Source: Galbibacter pacificus (GTDB lineage: Bacteria > Bacteroidota > Bacteroidia > Flavobacteriales > Flavobacteriaceae). From it: a DNA stretch of 64,000 nt. Positions 31,879 through 41,088 of the stretch are shown here, piece by piece. The translations under genes and the position numbers were made by a program. The DNA is taken from contig NZ_JAQSVC010000002.1 in the NCBI RefSeq assembly GCF_029603165.1, forward strand, positions 310,001-374,000. The letters are read 5' to 3'. Position 1 is the first letter of the stretch. Each line of letters opens with the position of its first letter. The notes beneath the pieces are model-generated. The model searched no databases and was not told the origin of the DNA. It worked only from the letters and a program-made list of their open reading frames with translations.

Positions 31879-32634
31879 TTAGTTTGTGCTTTTTAATTCG
31901 TCACGTATGTCAAGGTAGAAAGCATTAAAGTCCGGATGAAGAAAAACATAGGAAACATTGCTTCCCCCCGCCGTAATTGTAGATTTAAGTCTGGCAGGCG
32001 CTACATTGTAACTTTCCAACAATAATTCCGAGATCGAAGCCGCCCTTAACGAATTGGTATTCCAGTCGCCTCCGCTGCTTTGAACAGAAACCATAAGGGA
32101 TTCGTATTTATTGATTACTGCAGAAATTCTTCCTACAAATTCTTTGGCCGGTTCTTCTATTTTAGCATTATCTGCCTTGTCTCCATAAAGAAAACCATTG
32201 TCCATTTTAATTAAAATAGACCCTTTTTCAACACCAATCTGGGCATTTTCTCCTAAGGTTTTTTTAAGGTCAGTAAGAACCAAAAAAGCAATGGAGTCGT
32301 TGGCACTGTAGACGTCTCTTACTTGTTTTAATTGTGCTTCTTTTTTGTTTAGGGCCTCCAGTGTTTTACCAATACTGTTGGATTGTTGCGTGGATGTAGA
32401 CAAAAACTTGTTCATGTTGTTGAGCAATTGCTCGTTTGTGTGTTTAAGCTCATCTACTTGGTTTTCTAAGCTAGAAACTTTTGTTTGTGCCAAACTTAGG
32501 TCGGCCTGGGTTTGGTTTAAAACTTTAAGCTGATCGTTCAATTTTGCGACCTCTTCTTTTAAGTCTTTCTTGCTTTGTGCAAAAACGGTTGTGCTAGCAA
32601 ATACTACCAATAAAATAGCATATAAAGTTCTCAT
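31879..32634 (-). CDS. Secreted coiled-coil protein with OmpA/MotB-like C-terminal domain
   Basis: 251 residues from the ATG at 32632-32634, which opens a clean signal peptide (MRTLYAILLVVFASTTVFAQ). An upstream Met would put 14 odd residues before the signal and is rejected. Residues 22-110 are heptad-like coiled coil (LKEEVAKLNDQLKVLNQTQ). The C-terminal half (about 125-250) resembles a divergent OmpA/MotB peptidoglycan-binding domain: ILIKMDNGFLYGDKA, LRAASISELLLESYNVAPARLKST. It likely sits in the periplasm linking the envelope to the wall. The domain call is by pattern and moderate. Confidence 0.7.
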   Translation of the reverse strand: MRTLYAILLVVFASTTVFAQSKKDLKEEVAKLNDQLKVLNQTQADLSLAQTKVSSLENQVDELKHTNEQLLNNMNKFLSTSTQQSNSIGKTLEALNKKEAQLKQVRDVYSANDSIAFLVLTDLKKTLGENAQIGVEKGSILIKMDNGFLYGDKADNAKIEEPAKEFVGRISAVINKYESLMVSVQSSGGDWNTNSLRAASISELLLESYNVAPARLKSTITAGGSNVSYVFLHPDFNAFYLDIRDELKSTN

Positions 32635-32890
32635 TGTATTAATGTAAAATTTGTTTTTAATGTTTAAATGTGGCACAAGATATTATTTTTTAATTATATG
32701 GCATAAAAAGAACCAAACCTTTATTATGTAATTTTGTTATGTCAATAACGTTTTACATGCCTTATGGAGCTATTAAAGGGGTTGTGTGTATGCATGAATA
32801 TGAAAAAAAACGTACCATATTTTTTAAATATAACTATTGCATGGAAAATCGATATATTTTTACAATTTTAACTAAAAAAGTAAAATATTA
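32635..32890. other. Long AT-rich spacer before the his operon
   Basis: Divergent spacer between the OmpA-like gene and the his promoter. No ORF of interest, repeat or stable hairpin was seen. It should hold the promoter of the minus-strand gene, but I could not place it with confidence. Confidence 0.5.
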
Positions 32891-32923
32891 TTTGGAAACC
32901 ATTTTTTAAATGACTTAAATTTG
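32891..32923 (+). promoter_or_regulatory. his operon promoter
   Basis: TTTG at 32891-32894 and TAAATTTG at 32916-32923 are separated by 21 bases, the same geometry as the ECF sigma promoter. Transcription should start near 32930, only about a dozen bases before the leader peptide start codon. Confidence 0.7.
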
Positions 32924-32941
32924 TAACAAGATTAAAAGAAA

Positions 32942-32998
32942 ATGAATTTCAACACTGTACATCATCATCATTTTTATACTTGCACTCAAGCGAGGTAA
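32942..32998 (+). CDS. His operon leader peptide (18 residues, four consecutive His)
   Basis: The ORF reads MNFNTVHHHHFYTCTQAR and stops. Four CAT codons at 32960-32971 act as a histidine sensor: low charged tRNA-His stalls the ribosome there. It lies between the his promoter and an intrinsic terminator, the classical position, and is too short for ordinary gene finders. Its 3' end (32984-32996) doubles as the 5' arm of the antiterminator. Confidence 0.9.
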   Translation: MNFNTVHHHHFYTCTQAR

Positions 32999-33064
32999 AA
33001 ATGCTATGTACAATTTTAAAACATATGTAAAACCCGTTTGAGTAACATCAAACGGGTTTTTTTA
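32955..33064 (+). promoter_or_regulatory. Histidine-responsive transcription attenuator
   Basis: Two exclusive structures are visible. The terminator pairs 33029-33041 with 33050-33062. The antiterminator pairs ACTCAAGCGAGGT (32984-32996) with ACCCGTTTGAGT (33032-33043): 12 pairs with one G-U and one bulged A. A third pairing, TGTACAT (32955-32961) with ATGTACA (33005-33011), may pause polymerase. A ribosome stalled on the His codons leaves 32984-32996 free, so the antiterminator forms and hisG is read. A ribosome reaching the stop covers it and the terminator forms. Confidence 0.88.
33029..33064 (+). terminator. Attenuator terminator of the his operon
   Basis: AAAACCCGTTTGA and TCAAACGGGTTTT form a 13-pair stem with a short loop, followed directly by a T-run. 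It ends 37 bases before the hisG start. Confidence 0.93.
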
Positions 33065-33100
33065 TTTACATTAAATAATTACCAACAAGACGAAATAGAA

Positions 33101-33964
33101 ATGGAAGAAAAAAAAATAAGGATTGCTATTCAAAAATCGGGCAGGCTTAACGAAGATTCCTTACGGATTCTTAAAGATTGCGGGATATCCATTGATAATG
33201 GCAGAGATCAATTAAAGGCATCGGCACGCAATTTCCCGTTGGAAGTTATGTATTTGCGAAACGGGGACATCCCACAATATTTAAGGGATGGCGTGGTAGA
33301 CTTGGCCATTGTGGGGGAAAACTTATTGATTGAAAAAGGCAGGGACCTGGAAGTAATTGAAAAATTGGGGTTTTCTAAATGCAAGGTGTCTTTGGCAGTG
33401 CCCAAAAACTTTAAATTCAAATCGGTAAAAGATTTGGAAGGTAAAAAAATAGCCACTTCGTATCCAAATACAGTCAATGAATTCCTTCAAAGGGAAAAAA
33501 TAAATGCCGAGCTTCATATAATTAACGGTTCGGTGGAGATTGCCCCGAATATAGGTTTGGCCGATGCCATTGTTGATATTGTTTCCAGTGGGAGCACGTT
33601 GTTTAAAAATAATTTAAAAGAAGCAATTACCATTTTAAGGAGCGAAGCCGTTTTGGTAGCCTCCCCAACAATAAGTCCGGAAATGCGGACATCCATAGAA
33701 AAACTTAGGTTTAGGATACAATCTGTTTTAAAGGCCCGCGACTCTAAATATGTGCTTTTAAATGCTCCAAATGATAAAATTGACAAAATAATAGAGCTTT
33801 TACCGGGAATGCGCAGCCCAACAGTGCTTCCTTTGGCAGAAGAAGGCTGGAGCTCCATACATACGGTTATCAACAAAGACCGTTTTTGGGAAATTATAGA
33901 CGAACTCAAGGCCATTGGGGCAGAAGGTATTTTGGTTTGCCCTATTGAAAAAATGGTGGTGTGA
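33101..33964 (+). CDS. hisG: ATP phosphoribosyltransferase, long form
   Basis: First step of histidine synthesis: ATP plus PRPP gives phosphoribosyl-ATP. The 287-residue length and the C-terminal ACT-like domain (RSPTVLPLAEEGWSSIHTV onward) mark the long HisG form, which is feedback-inhibited by histidine and needs no HisZ. The PRPP-binding region is VDIVSSGSTL. I start at the ATG at 33101 (MEEKKIRIAIQ), since the in-frame upstream extension runs back through the terminator hairpin. It is the first structural gene of the operon. Confidence 0.97.
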   Translation: MEEKKIRIAIQKSGRLNEDSLRILKDCGISIDNGRDQLKASARNFPLEVMYLRNGDIPQYLRDGVVDLAIVGENLLIEKGRDLEVIEKLGFSKCKVSLAVPKNFKFKSVKDLEGKKIATSYPNTVNEFLQREKINAELHIINGSVEIAPNIGLADAIVDIVSSGSTLFKNNLKEAITILRSEAVLVASPTISPEMRTSIEKLRFRIQSVLKARDSKYVLLNAPNDKIDKIIELLPGMRSPTVLPLAEEGWSSIHTVINKDRFWEIIDELKAIGAEGILVCPIEKMVV

Positions 33965-34021
33965 TTTATTAAAAATGATAAAAGGAATTAAGTTAAAGAA
34001 TTAAGGTTTTTATCTTATTAA

Positions 34022-34056
34022 CGAACAACGAACAACGAACAACGAACAACGAACAA
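34022..34056 (+). repeat. Five perfect tandem CGAACAA heptamers before hisD
   Basis: The five copies run without interruption to one base before the hisD ATG at 34058. They occupy the ribosome-binding region and are free of stable structure. One further CGAACAA touches the hisC ATG (35420-35426). Confidence 0.95.
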
Positions 34057-34057
34057 A

Positions 34058-35341
34058 ATGAACAAAATATACAATCCAACAAGAAGCCAATGGAACGAGG
34101 TTTTAAAAAGGCCTACACAGACCATTGAAGACATAGAGGCAACCGTGAGCGAGGTTTTTAACGAGGTAAGCCAGAAAGGCGATGAAGCTATCAAAAAATA
34201 TACAAGTCTTTTTGACGGGGTGGACCTAAAGAACAACAAGGTTTCTAATGCAGAAATTAAAGATGCCATAAAGCAAATCCCCTCAGAACTTAAAGAAGCC
34301 ATTAATACCGCAAAAAACAATATTGAAGCTTTTCATGCCGCCCAAAAAACAAACGGCATAAAGGTAGATACCGTAAATGGGGTTTCTTGTTGGCAGGAAA
34401 AGCGCCCAATAGAAAAAATTGGCCTTTACATCCCTGGCGGAACGGCACCTTTATTTTCCACGATTTTAATGTTGGCCATTCCTGCACAATTGGCCGGTTG
34501 CAAAGAGGTAGTATTGTGTACGCCGCCAAACAAGGAAGGGAAGGTAAACCCGGCCATTCTTTACACAGCTTCTCTGTGCGGGGTGGATAAAATTTATAAA
34601 ATAGGGGGGATACAAGCTATAGCCGCGATGACTTTCGGTACCGAAACTGTGCCAAAAGTTTATAAAATATTTGGCCCGGGGAACCAATTTGTTACCGTGG
34701 CCAAACAATTGGCAACACGCTACAATGTAGCCATAGACATGCCTGCGGGGCCTTCGGAGTTATTGGTGGTGGCCGATGAAACCGCAAATCCTTCATATGT
34801 AGCGTCCGATTTGTTGTCGCAGGCAGAGCACGGTATCGATAGCCAAGTGGTTATGGTATCCACTTCAAAGGAAATGATAGATTCCGTGGCCGACCAGATT
34901 GAGGAACAAATTAAGGGTTTACCGCGCAGGGAAATTGCAGAAAAAGCAATAGAAAATTCCCGGCTTATTTATGTCGATACCAAGGAAGATGCACTGGAAT
35001 TGATTAATGAATATGGCCCCGAGCATTTTATAATCACGGTAAGCAATGAAAATTTTTATGTAGACGGGATAGTAAATGCCGGATCGGTTTTTATTGGCGA
35101 CTATACGCCCGAAAGCGCCGGCGATTATGCGTCGGGAACCAATCATACGCTTCCTACAAACGGCTATGCCAAACAATACAGCGGTGTAAATTTGGATAGT
35201 TTTATGAAGAGCATGACATTTCAAAAAATAACAAAAGACGGAATAAAAAACATAGGGCCGGCCATAGAACTTATGGCAGAAGCCGAAGGCTTGCAGGCAC
35301 ATAAAAATGCAGTAACCATACGCTTGAAAGATTTAAAGTGA
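34058..35341 (+). CDS. hisD: Histidinol dehydrogenase
   Basis: Catalyses the last two oxidations, L-histidinol to L-histidine, with NAD and zinc. The 427-residue protein has the family landmarks GLYIPGGTAPLFST, GPGNQFVTVAKQ, MPAGPSELLVVADE, SQAEHGIDSQ (metal-site Gln/His) and NHTLPTNGYAKQYSGV. Length is normal. It is preceded by the tandem CGAACAA tract in place of a Shine-Dalgarno sequence. Second gene of the operon. Confidence 0.98.
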   Translation: MNKIYNPTRSQWNEVLKRPTQTIEDIEATVSEVFNEVSQKGDEAIKKYTSLFDGVDLKNNKVSNAEIKDAIKQIPSELKEAINTAKNNIEAFHAAQKTNGIKVDTVNGVSCWQEKRPIEKIGLYIPGGTAPLFSTILMLAIPAQLAGCKEVVLCTPPNKEGKVNPAILYTASLCGVDKIYKIGGIQAIAAMTFGTETVPKVYKIFGPGNQFVTVAKQLATRYNVAIDMPAGPSELLVVADETANPSYVASDLLSQAEHGIDSQVVMVSTSKEMIDSVADQIEEQIKGLPRREIAEKAIENSRLIYVDTKEDALELINEYGPEHFIITVSNENFYVDGIVNAGSVFIGDYTPESAGDYASGTNHTLPTNGYAKQYSGVNLDSFMKSMTFQKITKDGIKNIGPAIELMAEAEGLQAHKNAVTIRLKDLK

Positions 35342-35426
35342 GTTGTAGTTTGATGAAGAAATAGGGCTTCGCAAATATTTGAGTGAAGCATAAAAGCAAC
35401 AACAACGAGCAACAAACAACGAACAA

Positions 35427-36473
35427 ATGACAACAACATTCAATATAAATACTTTAGTTCGGGAGAACGTTAAAAAACTCAAGCCATATTCTTCTGCAAG
35501 GGACGAGTTTAAGGATTTCGACAAGGAGATGGTTTTTCTTGATGCCAACGAAAACCCTTTTAACAACGGCGTGAACCGTTATCCCGATCCGCAGCAGCGT
35601 TCCCTAAAACAAGCACTGGCTGGGCAAAAAAATGTTAAATCCAACCAGATTCTCCTTGGGAATGGAAGCGACGAAGTTTTAGACCTTATTTTCAGGGCTT
35701 TTTGCGAACCCAGGCAAGACAATATCATTACGCTTCCCCCAACATACGGTATGTACAAAGTATTGGCCGAAACCAATGATATTGAAAACAAGGAAGTACT
35801 TCTAACCAAAAGTTTTGAGCCCGATGTAAAGAAAATTATAAGCGTTGCCGATAAAAACAGCAAGCTCCTATTTTTGTGTTCGCCCAACAACCCAACGGGG
35901 AATGCTTTTAATGCTGAGAAAATAGAAGAGCTGTTGCAAAATTTCCCGGGGATTGTAGTTATAGATGAAGCGTATATCGATTTTTCAAACAAAGAAAGTT
36001 GGTTAAGCCGTTTGCCGGATTATCCTAATTTAATCGTTACGCAAACCTTGTCAAAAGCATACGGAATGGCGGGTATCCGTCTGGGAATTTGTTTTGCTTC
36101 TGAAGAAATCATACATGTACTCAATAAAATAAAACCACCGTACAATGTAAATCAGTTAACACAGCAAAAGGCACTTTCAAGAGTTTTAGATATTACATCA
36201 GTAAAAAATGAAATAATCTCAATTTTAGAGGAAAAGGATAGTTTATCTAAAGTTTTAGATAAAGTGTATTTTGTTGAAAAAATATATTCGTCCGATGCCA
36301 ATTTTGTGCTTGTAAAAGTAGACGATGCCAATTTGCGGTACCGTCAATTATTAAAAAAAGGTGTTGTGGTGCGAAACAGGAGCACACAACCTTTATGTAA
36401 AAATACATTGCGTTTCACCATTGGAACGCCCGCCGAAAACAAACAGCTAATTAAAGTTTTAAAAGAATTATAA
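35427..36473 (+). CDS. hisC: Histidinol-phosphate aminotransferase
   Basis: PLP enzyme converting imidazole acetol phosphate and glutamate to histidinol phosphate. 348 residues; the motifs are DANENPF near the N-terminus, GNGSDEVLDLI, SPNNPTGN, the DEAYIDF cofactor-binding segment and the Schiff-base Lys in TLSKAYGMAGIRLG. It begins directly after an A/C-rich tract and its stop is immediately followed by the hisB ATG (36474), suggesting coupled translation. Confidence 0.97.
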   Translation: MTTTFNINTLVRENVKKLKPYSSARDEFKDFDKEMVFLDANENPFNNGVNRYPDPQQRSLKQALAGQKNVKSNQILLGNGSDEVLDLIFRAFCEPRQDNIITLPPTYGMYKVLAETNDIENKEVLLTKSFEPDVKKIISVADKNSKLLFLCSPNNPTGNAFNAEKIEELLQNFPGIVVIDEAYIDFSNKESWLSRLPDYPNLIVTQTLSKAYGMAGIRLGICFASEEIIHVLNKIKPPYNVNQLTQQKALSRVLDITSVKNEIISILEEKDSLSKVLDKVYFVEKIYSSDANFVLVKVDDANLRYRQLLKKGVVVRNRSTQPLCKNTLRFTIGTPAENKQLIKVLKEL

Positions 36474-37610
36474 ATGAAAAAGAAAGTACTTTTTATAGAT
36501 AGGGACGGGACTTTAATAAAAGAGCCCGCCGATGAACAAATAGATGCTTTTGATAAATTGGACTTTTACCCAAAAGCATTGGCATACATGCCTAAAATTG
36601 CCGCGGAACTCGATTACGAACTGGTTATGGTTACCAATCAAGACGGTTTGGGAACGAATGCCTTTCCCGAAGATACTTTTTGGCCTGTGCATAATTTTAT
36701 CATGAAAACTTTTGAAAATGAAGAAGTTGTCTTCAAAGATGTTGTTATCGACAGAACCTTTGCCAAAGACAATGCACCCACAAGAAAACCAAATACGGGG
36801 TTGTTAACCAAGTATTTTTCAAGTGAATACGATTTGCAAAATTCCTTTGTAATAGGCGATAGGCTTACTGATATTGAGCTTGCTAAAAATTTGGGCGCAA
36901 AGGGCATCTTCATTAACAATCAAAGTTATCTTGGAGCAGAGGAGATTTCAGTAAAACGAGATGAATTAGATAGTTACATTGCTTTGGAAACAGATTGCTG
37001 GAAAGCAATTTATAGCTTTTTAAAGCTGGAAAATAGGGTGGCCGAAATATCCCGAAAGACCAACGAAACCGATATTTACATCAAATTAAATCTCGATGGG
37101 ACCGGAAAAAGTGAAATTGATACCGGAATTGCTTTTTTCGACCATATGTTGGACCAAATTTCCCGTCACGGGCAAATGGACTTGACCATAAGCGTAAAAG
37201 GCGATCTGGAAGTAGACGAGCATCATACCATTGAAGATACGGCCATTGCCCTGGGCGAAGTTTTTAGCATGGCACTTGGCGATAAACTCGGGATCGAACG
37301 TTATGGTTTTTGTTTGCCAATGGACGATTGCCTGGCGCAAGTGGCAATAGATTTTGGGGGAAGAAATTGGCTGGTTTGGGACGCAAGCTTTAAAAGGGAG
37401 CTAATTGGGAAAATGCCTACCGAAATGTTTTTTCACTTTTTTAAGTCGTTTACCGATGGGGCAAAAGCAAACCTGAACGTAAAGGTGGAAGGTGAAAATG
37501 AGCATCATAAAATAGAGGCGATTTTTAAGGCTTTTGCAAAAGCAATTAAAGCTGCCGTAAAAAGGGATACCGAAAAAATGATTTTGCCATCAACTAAAGG
37601 AATACTTTAG
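36474..37610 (+). CDS. hisB: Bifunctional histidinol-phosphatase / imidazoleglycerol-phosphate dehydratase
   Basis: A two-domain fusion of 378 residues. The N-terminal HAD phosphatase (about 1-170) has [11 protein letters not shown] with the nucleophile Asp, and [19 protein letters not shown]. The C-terminal dehydratase (about 185-378) has the manganese-binding [15 protein letters not shown] and [11 protein letters not shown] repeats and [13 protein letters not shown]. It thus supplies both the sixth and the eighth steps. The fusion is the enterobacterial-type arrangement shared with Bacteroidota. It directly abuts hisC. Confidence 0.97.
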
Positions 37611-37739
37611 GTAATTTACATAATTCAATGGTAATAAATGTATTAATAAATAAATTAGAAAATAATCGTATAGCTAAAATTGATGAATTTTACGGTTAAA
37701 ATTCTTTTGTTTGCTCTTTTAACTTCAAACTTTTAAACA

Positions 37740-38333
37740 ATGAACATAACTATAATAGATTACGGAGCAGGTAACATACAGAGTATTAAATTCGCATTTG
37801 AACGAATTGGAATAACGGCTGTTTTGTCTGATGAAGCCGAAACAATTTTAAGAGCAGACAGGGTAATTTTTCCGGGTGTTGGGGAAGCCAGCAGTGCCAT
37901 GCAAAAATTAAAAAGCACAAAATTAGACAGCATCATTCCAACATTAAAACAACCGGTATTGGGGATATGCTTGGGTATGCAACTTATGTGTAAATCATCA
38001 GAAGAAGGAAACACAAAAGGATTGGGGATTTTTGATGTAGACGTGGTAAAATTCAGCAATCAAGTAAAGGTACCTCAAATTGGGTGGAATCAAATAACCG
38101 ATTTAAAATCCCGACTTTTTCAAGACATCGCGGAAAACGAATACATGTATTTGGTGCATAGTTTTTATGCGCCTTTATGCAACGAAACCGCAGCTTTGTC
38201 CAATTATGGACTCGATTATTCATCAGCCTTGCAAAAAGACAATTTTTATGGGGTACAATTTCACCCGGAAAAGAGTAGCAAAGCCGGGCAACGTATTTTG
38301 GAAAACTTTTTAAAGTTAGATGTTAAAAGTTAA
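37740..38333 (+). CDS. hisH: Imidazole glycerol phosphate synthase, glutamine amidotransferase subunit
   Basis: Supplies ammonia from glutamine to HisF. 197 residues with the class I triad: Cys77 in GICLGMQLM, and His175 and Glu177 in QFHPEKS. IIDYGAGNIQSI at the N-terminus is typical. A 129-base AT-rich spacer separates it from hisB and a longer one from hisA. Confidence 0.96.
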   Translation: MNITIIDYGAGNIQSIKFAFERIGITAVLSDEAETILRADRVIFPGVGEASSAMQKLKSTKLDSIIPTLKQPVLGICLGMQLMCKSSEEGNTKGLGIFDVDVVKFSNQVKVPQIGWNQITDLKSRLFQDIAENEYMYLVHSFYAPLCNETAALSNYGLDYSSALQKDNFYGVQFHPEKSSKAGQRILENFLKLDVKS

Positions 38334-38527
38334 ATGGGAAAAGTAGAATTTATATAAAATCAATTGTTAGATAGAACTTAACAATTTACCCTTTTGATGG
38401 AAATTTCTGCTTTAAGATACCAAAATCAAGGGAGTACAGAATTATTGATAATATTCATTGAAACACAAAAAAAGAACCAAAAAGATAGACTTTTAACTTT
38501 GAATATCTAATATTTAACATAAATAAA
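38334..38527 (+). other. hisH-hisA spacer
   Basis: 194 AT-rich bases. A 37-codon ATG-initiated frame (38397-38510) is present but has no recognisable features and probably is not a gene. No terminator or promoter was seen, so the operon is expected to be read through. Confidence 0.45.
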
Positions 38528-39253
38528 ATGAGAATCATCCCCGCAATAGATATTATTGAAGGTAAATGTGTGCGACTTTCCAAAGGAGATTACAGCACCA
38601 AAAAAGTATACAACGAACATCCGCTGGAAGTAGCCAAGGAATTTGAGGCACACGGCATCCGGCATTTGCATTTGGTAGACTTGGATGGCGCCAAAAGCAA
38701 GCATATTGTAAATTATAAGGTTTTGGAGAGCATTGCTTCTAAGACAGGTTTGAAGATAGATTTTGGCGGCGGACTCAAATCGGATGAAGATTTGCGCATA
38801 GCTTTTGAAAGTGGTGCCAGTCAGATTACCGGAGGGAGCATTGCCGTGAAGGATCCAGAAATTTTTGAGCGTTGGATTGAAAAATTCGGGAACGAAAAAA
38901 TTATTTTGGGCGCAGATGCCGACAATGAAAAAATAGCCGTTTCCGGTTGGCAAGAGGCATCAAAAGAAGAACTGCTTCCATTTATTCAAAAATACCTTCA
39001 AAAGGGAATTGAATATGTAATTTGCACCGATATCAGCAAGGATGGTATGCTGCAAGGCCCATCGTTTGAGCTTTATAAAAAAATAATAAATACTTCTGAA
39101 GGCATAAAATTAATAGCTTCCGGAGGGATTTCAACTTTTGACGAATTGCCCAAATTGGCAGAAATCGGTTGTGAAGGGACAATTATTGGAAAAGCCATTT
39201 ATGAAGGAAGAATAAGCCTAAAACAATTAGAAAATTATATTTTAGATAGTTAA
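38528..39253 (+). CDS. hisA: Phosphoribosylformimino-AICAR phosphate isomerase
   Basis: A TIM-barrel sugar isomerase (ProFAR to PRFAR), 241 residues. The catalytic Asp8 is in IIPAIDII and the second catalytic Asp lies in ILGADAD (130-132). The phosphate-binding loops DFGGGLKS and IASGGIS are present. It is an internal duplication relative of hisF, which follows after a repeat-containing spacer. Confidence 0.97.
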
Positions 39254-39254
39254 G

Positions 39255-39517
39255 GTTAGGGAAAAGGGATTGGGGAATAGTTATTTGTTAATGGTTAATT
39301 GTTGTTAACGATATTTTGAAACCAGAAACCTTGAATAGTTAATGATTATTAGTGAAAAGGGAGAAGTGAAAAGGGAATGGTTATTTGTTAATGGTTAATT
39401 GTTGTTAGCGATACCTGAAACCTGGAATCTTTGAACCTCTGGACCCTCAACTCTCAACAACATAGCTACGTAACATCATAACAACATAGCAGCGTAACAA
39501 TGTAACAACAAAAAAAA
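39255..39517 (+). repeat. Intergenic repeat module, copy A (before hisF)
   Basis: The core GTTATTTGTTAATGGTTAAT occurs twice here (39280 and 39380). It is followed by a GAAACCAGAAACC block, a CTCAACTCTCAACAA block, and an A/C-rich tail of the type CATAGC(A/T)ACGTAACATCATAACAAC that runs to the hisF ATG. The same blocks, in the same order, appear in copies B and C. Confidence 0.8.
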
Positions 39518-40273
39518 ATGCTTACAAAAAGAATTATACCTTGCCTGGATATTAAAAATGGTCGTACTGTAAAGGGCGTAAATTTTGTAGCCCTTCGTGA
39601 TGCGGGCAACCCTGTGGAATTGGCAAAGCTATATGCCGAAAATGGGGCCGACGAACTTGTTTTTTTAGATATTTCGGCTACCGAAGAACGAAGAAAAACC
39701 TTGGCCGATTTGGTGCTTCGCGTGGCAAAAAACGTGAACATTCCCTTTACGGTAGGCGGTGGCATATCGTCTATAGAAGACGTGGACACCCTGCTTAAAT
39801 GTGGTGCCGATAAAGTTTCGGTAAATTCATCGGTGGTTAAAAATCCGCAATTAATAAACAGTTTATCCGCAAAATTTGGAAGTCAGTGTATCGTGGTGGC
39901 CATTGATGCCAAACAGGTCAACGGGAAATGGAAAGTACATTTGGTAGGAGGCAAGGTACCAACAGATATAGACTTGTTTGAATGGGCAAAAGAAGTGGAA
40001 TTGCGCGGAGCCGGGGAAATATTATTTACGTCCATGGACAACGACGGAACAAAAGACGGTTTTGCAAATGAAGCCCTTGCAAAACTTTCCACCGAATTAA
40101 ACATCCCGATTATTGCTTCTGGCGGAGCGGGGAACACACAGCATTTCACTGATGCATTTTTAAAAGGAAAAGCTGACGCGGCCTTGGCGGCAAGTGTTTT
40201 TCATTTTAAGGAAATAGAAATAAACGATTTAAAAGAAGAACTAAAGAAAAATGGAATCCCAGTTCGGTTATAA
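39518..40273 (+). CDS. hisF: Imidazole glycerol phosphate synthase, cyclase subunit
   Basis: A TIM-barrel cyclase forming IGP and AICAR with HisH-derived ammonia. 251 residues; catalytic Asp11 ([14 protein letters not shown]) and Asp130 (VVAIDAK) are both in the expected positions. FTVGGGISS and IASGGAGN are the phosphate loops. It starts nine bases after the A/C-rich tail of the repeat module. Confidence 0.98.
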
Positions 40274-40305
40274 TGCTTTTGGTTGATTAAATGTTAGATA
40301 GTGAT

Positions 40306-40484
40306 TGAGAAAAGGGATTAGTTATTTGTTAATGGTTAATTGTTGTTAACAATATTTTGAAACCAGAAACCAGAAACCAGAAACCTTGAACCTTGAATCT
40401 TTGGACCCTTAACTCTCAACTCTCAACAACATAGCAACGTAACATCATAACAGCATAGCAACATAACAGCGTAACAACGAAAAA
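40306..40484 (+). repeat. Intergenic repeat module, copy B (before hisIE)
   Basis: Carries the GTTATTTGTTAATGGTTAAT core at 40321, three tandem CCAGAAA units around 40371-40385, a CTTAACTCTCAACTCTCAAC block and a CATAGCAACGTAACATCATAACAG tail (given in part) ending at hisI. The order matches copy A. Confidence 0.8.
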
Positions 40485-40485
40485 T

Positions 40486-41088
40486 ATGAAAACAAACATA
40501 GATTTTAACAAAAACAAAGACGGGTTGGTTCCGGCCATTATTCAAGATCAAAACACCAAAAAGGTATTGATGCTTGGGTATATGAACGAAGAAGCCTATA
40601 AAAAAACGGTGGAAACTCAAAAAGTAACATTTTACAGCCGCACCAAACAACGTTTATGGACAAAAGGCGAGGAGAGTGGTAATTTTTTAAATTTAAAGGA
40701 TCTAAAAATAGATTGCGATAACGATACGCTTTTAATCTATGTACAACCCGTTGGCCCTGTTTGCCATAAAGGAACAGATACTTGTTGGGCAGAAAAGAAC
40801 CAAGCCGATTTTGGTTTTCTTTCAACGTTGGAAAATATAATTTCCAACAGAAAAGAAAATCGGGAAGACGAAAAAAGTTATGTGGCGTCGCTTTTTAGAA
40901 AAGGAATTAACAAAATAGCACAAAAAGTAGGCGAAGAAGCCGTGGAAACCGTAATTGAAGCCAAAGATGATAATGCAGAACTGTTTTTAAATGAAAGCGC
41001 CGATTTATTGTTTCATTACCTTATTTTATTACAGGCAAAAGGATATACATTGAAAGATATTGTTAAGGTTTTGGAAAGCAGGCATTAG
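40486..41088 (+). CDS. hisIE: Bifunctional phosphoribosyl-AMP cyclohydrolase / phosphoribosyl-ATP pyrophosphatase
   Basis: A fusion of HisI (about 1-105) and HisE (about 110-200) performing steps two and three. HisI motifs are VLMLGYMNEEAY, KVTFYSRTKQRLWTKGEESGN, and the metal-binding DCDNDTLLIYVQPVGPVCH and CHKGTDTCW. HisE has RKENREDEKSYVASLF and KVGEEAVETVIEAKD (given in parts). Last gene of the operon; corA follows after 44 bases with no clear terminator. Confidence 0.97.
   Translation: MKTNIDFNKNKDGLVPAIIQDQNTKKVLMLGYMNEEAYKKTVETQKVTFYSRTKQRLWTKGEESGNFLNLKDLKIDCDNDTLLIYVQPVGPVCHKGTDTCWAEKNQADFGFLSTLENIISNRKENREDEKSYVASLFRKGINKIAQKVGEEAVETVIEAKDDNAELFLNESADLLFHYLILLQAKGYTLKDIVKVLESRH

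Follow-up and report, generated by a model that had tools for sequence, protein, structure and literature searches.

The histidine operon of Galbibacter pacificus and its control region

The DNA analysed here, referred to as the window, is a stretch of 64,000 nucleotides from the 4.04 Mb genome of Galbibacter pacificus, and it carries a set of histidine biosynthesis genes on the plus strand. The first gene, hisG (33101-33964; PF01634, 3.9e-50; PF08029, 4.6e-30), begins at ATG 33101, and its product is 92% identical to HisG of Galbibacter mesophilus and 91% identical to that of Joostella atrarenae. The remaining operon, hisD, hisC, hisB, hisH, hisA, hisF and hisIE (34058-41088, plus strand), was assigned from Pfam hits, with gene order suggesting the individual names of hisC, hisH, hisA and hisF as well as a single transcription unit. 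Within it, hisB (36474-37610) is a HAD-type phosphatase fused to imidazoleglycerol-phosphate dehydratase. The spacer before hisD contains 5.3 copies of AACGAAC (34020-34056), and a 78-nt repeat with copies 79-81% alike occurs together with AACAACAT arrays before hisF and hisIE (39258-39510 and 40299-40478). The longest mechanically called ORF for hisG starts at TTG 33038, within the terminator described below, and this cautions against taking that ORF as the gene. The neighbouring upstream ORF (31879-32676, minus strand, without a Pfam hit) is divergent, so the terminator cannot be the end of the upstream gene.

The original prediction had placed a promoter, a leader, an antiterminator and a terminator in this order before hisG, and both the order and the coordinates hold when the sequence is re-read and folded. 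The promoter (32891-32923, plus strand) consists of a -33 box, TTTG, at 32891-32894 and a -7 box, TAAATTTG, at 32916-32923, separated by a 21-nt spacer. As predicted, it is of the -33/-7 kind and scores 10 out of 10 against TTTG-N18..22-TAnnTTTG, a layout and motif that we take to be the Bacteroidetes promoter type. Scores of 9-10 out of 10 are found within the 75 nt before the leader in 137 of 182 homologous loci, compared with 31 of 910 mononucleotide shuffles that keep base composition alone. A sigma-70 scan, which uses a consensus different from the Bacteroidetes-type one, did not report the -33/-7 promoter. Transcription would start at about 32929.

The promoter is followed by a short ORF, predicted to be translated, that encodes the leader peptide MNFNTVHHHHFYTCTQAR in 18 codons (32942-32998, plus strand), from ATG 32942 to a stop codon at 32996-32998. 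In Bacteroidota, translation of many genes does not depend on a strong Shine-Dalgarno sequence. The four consecutive His codons reported for this 18-residue leader are read as CAT ×4 at 32960-32971 on the plus strand, and as putative control codons they match the product of the operon that they precede. Across 182 loci the longest His run is two codons in 6 loci, three in 70, four in 92, five in 11 and six in 3.

Three competing helices

An intrinsic terminator (33029-33067, plus strand) lies between the leader and hisG, where it is predicted to end transcription. It is composed of a 13-pair stem (33029-33041/33048-33060) and a T run, and is supported by hairpin scan, folding and alignment. 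The scan returned it as a single hairpin with 2 sites, on both strands, compared with 0.3 in shuffles. Its minimum free energy (MFE) is -18.2 kcal/mol (z -5.2), which 0 of 200 shuffles equalled or bettered, and the 5th to 95th percentile of terminator energies across 182 loci runs from -19.6 to -14.5 kcal/mol.

The final leader codons and the first base of the stop codon form antiterminator strand 2 (ACTCAAGCGAGGT, 32984-32996, plus strand), recognised by folding and by the conservation of its core. Its partner, strand 3 (ACCCGTTTGAGT, 33032-33043, plus strand), recognised by folding and alignment, is used by the antiterminator and the terminator alike, making the two helices mutually exclusive. 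The antiterminator that had been described for these two strands, with 12 pairs and one bulged A, was found within the MFE fold of 32978-33050 (-17.6 kcal/mol with a small inner hairpin counted in; equalled or bettered by 2 of 200 shuffles). The proposal that the 3′ end of the leader is itself the antiterminator arm is also borne out, as this arm is real and conserved: 134 of the 162 distinct loci have an exact copy of its core, TCARGCGA.

The claim of a complete attenuator stands for each of its listed parts, but not for a set of two hairpins, since folding adds a protector hairpin that encloses strand 2. The protector (32956-33012, plus strand; MFE and covariation) starts just upstream of the first His codon and has an outer stem (32956-32962/33006-33012) and inner stems (32969-32977/32995-33003 and 32979-32983/32990-32994). 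Taken alone, the protector stretch 32942-33045 is unremarkable (-17.6 kcal/mol, z -1.84; 12 of 200 shuffles equal or better). The protector, antiterminator and terminator helices cannot all coexist, and since the MFEs of their respective stretches are -17.6, -17.6 and -18.2 kcal/mol, the modelled three-helix switch looks balanced. An A-rich block at 33019-33023 (consensus AAnATAT), just upstream of the terminator, has three nearly invariant A positions in the family alignment A1; it lies outside the three counted helices, and two of its A pair in the inner hairpin of the antiterminator fold of the window.

Distribution in the family and the phylum

HisG was found in 266 of 299 family genomes searched, from which the best 30 matches and a further 80 from the list were taken; 4 same-genus loci and 62 named loci were added, for a total of 176 hisG upstream regions. 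An upstream ORF with at least two consecutive His is present in 175 of these 176 regions, by a two-His rule that has no control of its own. A stricter rule, combining a His-rich leader with a terminator, is passed by 172 of 176 (the ORF picked for L036 being spurious), with L026, L072, L078 and the Firmicutes hit L176 as the exceptions, and by 61 of 61 Bacteroidota members among the named loci. Subtracting 13 duplicates and L176 leaves 162 distinct loci, and 22 further family loci bring the set to 184, including metagenome-assembled genomes titled just Bacteroidetes or, for L172, Bacteroidales. By a third rule, leader and terminator occur together in 182 of these 184 loci from Flavobacteriaceae and near relatives; L072 and L078 fail, each nonetheless with a two-His ORF. 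Under the same rule, 0 of 300 dinucleotide shuffles of 60 family loci (drawn from the 182) and 2 of 239 reversed sequences pass.

Outside the family, 57 loci were sampled among the matches listed, in a search where 252 of 296 phylum genomes had HisG. Leader and terminator are found in 35 of the 57 (same order, 4 of 4; same class, 20 of 33; other classes, 11 of 20), a count that may include false positives with long or GC-rich ORFs (L200, L203, L221, L226 and L233), and the other 22 fail the rule; of 285 control sequences made from the 57 by dinucleotide shuffling, 3 pass. Taken together, the surveys show a predicted histidine attenuator that is standard in the family and present in much of the phylum.

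In one family of the same class (f3), five loci (L208, L210-L213) have His-rich leaders (for example NHHLHLHHRR) with a hairpin at the stop codon and a terminator that is absent by rule; GTTTCTACGCGAAATAACAACC lies downstream in L211-L213, and output in these five loci may go through Rho or translation. In another family of the class (f8), the leaders of L187, L193, L197 and L199 end in HHFHHSS and have a hairpin at the stop with no clear terminator, and L192, L195 and L198 have HHH leaders with strong terminators, giving two designs in a single family.

When the G. pacificus genome is searched with a covariance model, one strong site is found, the control region before hisG (E 4e-24; next 8.9e-4). 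Model R1 matches 72 of 118 genomes of the order at E ≤ 0.01, a tally that we rejected as a measure of prevalence because R1 over-calls terminators and many of the hits listed span no more than model positions from about 50 to 123 or score near 30 bits. Each of the 24 own-family genomes among the R1 matches is found at 2.2e-10 or better. Three genomes of another family in the order (f54; L262, L281 and L284) give very strong matches (E 6.4e-22 to 8.8e-18), and the remaining f54 genomes among the matches listed give weak or no match, suggesting transfer or a question of taxonomy.

Pairing and covariation

An alignment of hisG upstream regions from many relatives, put forward with the original prediction as a check, revealed conserved His runs and paired stems, with modest covariation of the antiterminator inside the family. 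The alignment used for pairing, A1, contains 65 non-redundant family loci; the 182 loci were reduced to 173 by a spacing rule and to 68 by a similarity cut, and L069, L172 and L254 were omitted for diverged cores. In the antiterminator, 92.8% of cells are paired (best slid register, 51.5%) and the covariation score is 0.141 against 0.076. Corresponding values are 95.2% paired and 0.156 against 0.093 for the terminator, and 72.5% paired and 0.185 against at most 0.128 for the protector, all pair percentages from A1 leaning favourable with this omission. The paired percentages and covariation scores of all three helices were reached by 0 of 500 shuffles, a control that ignores relatedness. Double changes are seen in 7 of 13 terminator pairs, compared with 1.4 in shuffles, and in 82 protector cells, compared with 56.

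Most of the double-changed cells of the antiterminator (16 of 20) are at its outermost pair, a position at which pairing fails in 19 of 64 cells. With this pair removed, 94.8% of cells are paired and just 4 double-changed cells remain; covariation is then 0.107, against 0.079 after sliding, and 9 of 500 shuffles match or exceed it. With or without the outermost pair, neither the count of pairs with double changes nor that of pair types is outstanding. Unpaired cells at the bulge number 17 and 6 out of 65. Given this concentration of double changes at the outer pair, support for the antiterminator within the family comes from conserved pairing more than from covariation. Matched changes in strands 2, 3 and 4 simultaneously are found at three loci (L045, L251 and L255). 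The protector pairs in 63.7% of cells in its outer stem, and two of its five measures are not outstanding (28 of 500 and 118 of 500 shuffles). A swap test of this outer stem, with shuffles that keep base composition alone, is weak, as a median of 30% of foreign partners fit equally and 26 of 181 loci are at 10% or less. Folding A1 with RNAalifold recovered the terminator, and did not recover the protector or the antiterminator.

In the 35 loci outside the family, the paired sequences are mostly unlike those of the family, and arms tend to fit their own terminators. A median of 8% of foreign terminators fit an arm as well as its own (10% or less in 23 of 35 loci), and in 28 of 35 loci at most 5 of 100 shuffled arms, matched in base composition alone, are as good.

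Geometry and proposed mechanism

The control codons lie upstream of strand 2, and the stop codon lies at strand 2. We measured this geometry in 179 of the 182 loci, leaving out L060 and L254, which have a diverged core, and L245, where the wrong ORF had been picked and the correct leader is present with the core. In 151 of 179 loci the core TCARGCGA starts 17 nt downstream of the first base of the final His codon, and in 149 of 179 its start lies 10 nt upstream of the stop codon. If the ribosome is assumed to cover about 12 nt past the first base of the A-site codon, a ribosome with the last His codon in its A site would leave the core exposed in 173 of 179 loci, and one with the stop codon there would cover it in 173 of 179. 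This position of the core is the arrangement that a classical switch would need.

A promoter followed by a short His-codon ORF, an intrinsic terminator before hisG, a conserved antiterminator that excludes it, and His codons placed ahead of an arm that ends at the stop codon are the features by which a ribosome-mediated transcription attenuator is recognised. From these, the control region very probably is such an attenuator, sensing charged tRNA-His. RNA polymerase would initiate near 32929 and transcribe the leader. When histidine is ample, the ribosome would reach the stop codon and cover strand 2 (32984-32996), leaving strand 3 to pair with strand 4; the resulting terminator would be expected to stop transcription at about 33061-33067. 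When histidine is scarce, the ribosome would stall on one of the four CAT codons and open the protector, and the freed strand 2 would then pair with strand 3, block the terminator and allow hisGDCBHAFI to be transcribed. If translation is absent, the protector would conceal strand 2, with the terminator as the presumed default.

Weighing other explanations

Intrinsic terminators are common, and the stem is symmetrical enough to be detected on both strands, so the terminator could be thought to act constitutively, insulating hisG from upstream transcription next to a chance His-rich ORF without meaning. This is very unlikely, as a conserved promoter separates the terminator from the upstream gene, which points the other way, leader and terminator co-occur in the family far beyond the shuffled and reversed controls, and the antiterminator pairing is conserved and has been re-made in other families. 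A functional small peptide, with the conserved QA(R/S/K/N) end acting as protein, for example in nascent-chain arrest, would fit the QAx end, which precedes the stop codon in 138 of the 162 distinct loci, as well as three longer leaders (L121, L167 and L170) that still contain QAR and extend past it. However, QAR is simply strand 2 read in the usual frame. Six leaders (L017, L023, L032, L125, L164 and L165) have an early stop at the Q codon, two more (L104 and L119) are in another frame at the QA position, and all eight have lost the peptide end and keep the strand-2 RNA. In the three early-stop loci present in A1, a U-G pair replaces C-G. With RNA strand retained and peptide lost, the QAx end appears to be incidental to the RNA arm, and a functional peptide is hardly to be expected.

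Direct sensing by a histidine riboswitch or a tRNA-binding T-box has a precedent in T-boxes described as regulating histidine genes of some Gram-positive bacteria (PMC9413887). In the window, no Rfam family scores as high as its gathering threshold, T-box (RF00230) and His_leader (RF00514) included, and neither of these two is listed at E ≤ 10 for 32850-33120. Weak Rfam matches (PyrR, trpB motif, L10 leader and others), far below gathering scores, were taken as chance; two of their alignments put the terminator stem onto the terminator of the model. The conserved columns mainly coincide with the ORF, the arm and the terminator, and direct sensing is extremely improbable. We rejected the constitutive terminator, the functional peptide and the riboswitch or T-box. 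The region could also be a true attenuator with a main output other than intrinsic termination, such as translation coupling or an effect of Rho on the leader, in keeping with the terminator-less His-rich leaders of L208, L210-L213, L187, L193, L197 and L199. The terminator is near-universal and strong across the 182 family loci, which makes such an output improbable here. Ribosome-mediated transcription attenuation through the intrinsic terminator is the reading that we retain.

Relation to known attenuators

Ribosome-mediated attenuation of his operons is textbook knowledge in enterobacteria, where the his leader carries seven His codons and a larger number of stems. The Galbibacter element resembles enterobacterial hisL (RF00514) in having a His-codon leader, an intrinsic terminator and a competing antiterminator before hisG, and differs from it in its protector, antiterminator and terminator set and in His runs that are mostly 3-4 codons in relatives. 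In the trp attenuator, 1:2, 2:3 and 3:4 helices form, and strand 2 is covered once a ribosome has reached the stop codon. The same logic of a 1:2 protector, a 2:3 antiterminator and a 3:4 terminator appears at hisG with a different amino acid and sequence, and RF00513 matches weakly (20.6 bits, its gathering score being 41).

Vitreschak and colleagues, in 2004 (FEMS Microbiol Lett 234:357), reportedly predicted attenuators for his and other operons, some of them in Bacteroidetes/Chlorobi. A 2010 survey states that, to its authors' knowledge, leader-peptide systems were unproven beyond Proteobacteria and Actinobacteria before their own case in Firmicutes (PMC2965389). It has been suggested that amino-acid attenuators may be of gamma-proteobacterial origin with few transfers (PMC3766115), a view that, as presented there, relied on Rfam models that miss the element described here. 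In Bacteroides thetaiotaomicron, short ORFs resembling leader peptides were reported in long 5′ UTRs, in a passage that leaves histidine unmentioned (PMC7366714). In the text of a 2021 study of his genes from the Bacteroidota superphylum, "leader" does not occur and "attenuat" occurs once, on enterobacteria (PMC8305728). No experimental his attenuator in Bacteroidota appears in the titles and abstracts among the literature matches listed.

The closest precedent comes from Flavobacterium psychrophilum, where a 2021 study reports a structured 5′ element at hisG, also in other genera of Flavobacteriaceae and with no Rfam hit, along with strong indications that leader-peptide attenuators precede amino-acid operons (PMC9723704). 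Like the Galbibacter region, that element is a structured, transcribed and family-wide 5′ region without an Rfam hit; unlike the present description, the text on the hisG element is without a His leader or helix model (PMC9723704). Compared by description, the two may be the same element, and a large genus of the family (g111) carries the hisG attenuator element. The kind of attenuator is old, and the element, apparently reported in part before, is supported here by conservation, pairing and geometry.

Possible wider amino-acid attenuation in Galbibacter and Bacteroidota

Leaders of similar design precede other amino-acid genes in the same genome. Prephenate dehydratase (L289) has a Phe-rich leader, MLANAYIWNFYFFFFYFFNERTGRL (FYFFFFYFF), trpE (L290) has MQQMRTIQKNTWWWYNLRQKS (WWW), and ilvD (L294) has MKHFLVIVIRIIVSSY (LVIVIRIIV), each followed by a hairpin and a T run. 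By eye, an arm at the end of the Phe and ilvD leaders, or just past the stop, pairs with the 5′ side of the terminator. These three are likely Phe, Trp and Ile/Val attenuators, and attenuation thus looks general in the Galbibacter genome, as judged from these leaders. No leader was seen at the homoserine dehydrogenase genes (L292 and L293), where an open frame fills the flank.

Tentatively, and with somewhat less than even confidence, we propose that stop-codon-centred attenuators are ordinary for amino-acid operons across much of Bacteroidota. Their paired RNAs would have been replaced repeatedly (CCCGTTTGAG, CCGTCTGAG, GGCTTACC, GGCTTGCC, CCTACCTG and CCGGCG types) with the geometry held constant, and some His-leader lineages that lack a terminator would have switched to a different output, for instance Rho or translation. 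The alignment could seed an Rfam family, and the hisG control region provides a clean, testable candidate histidine switch for a phylum with few studied RNA switches.
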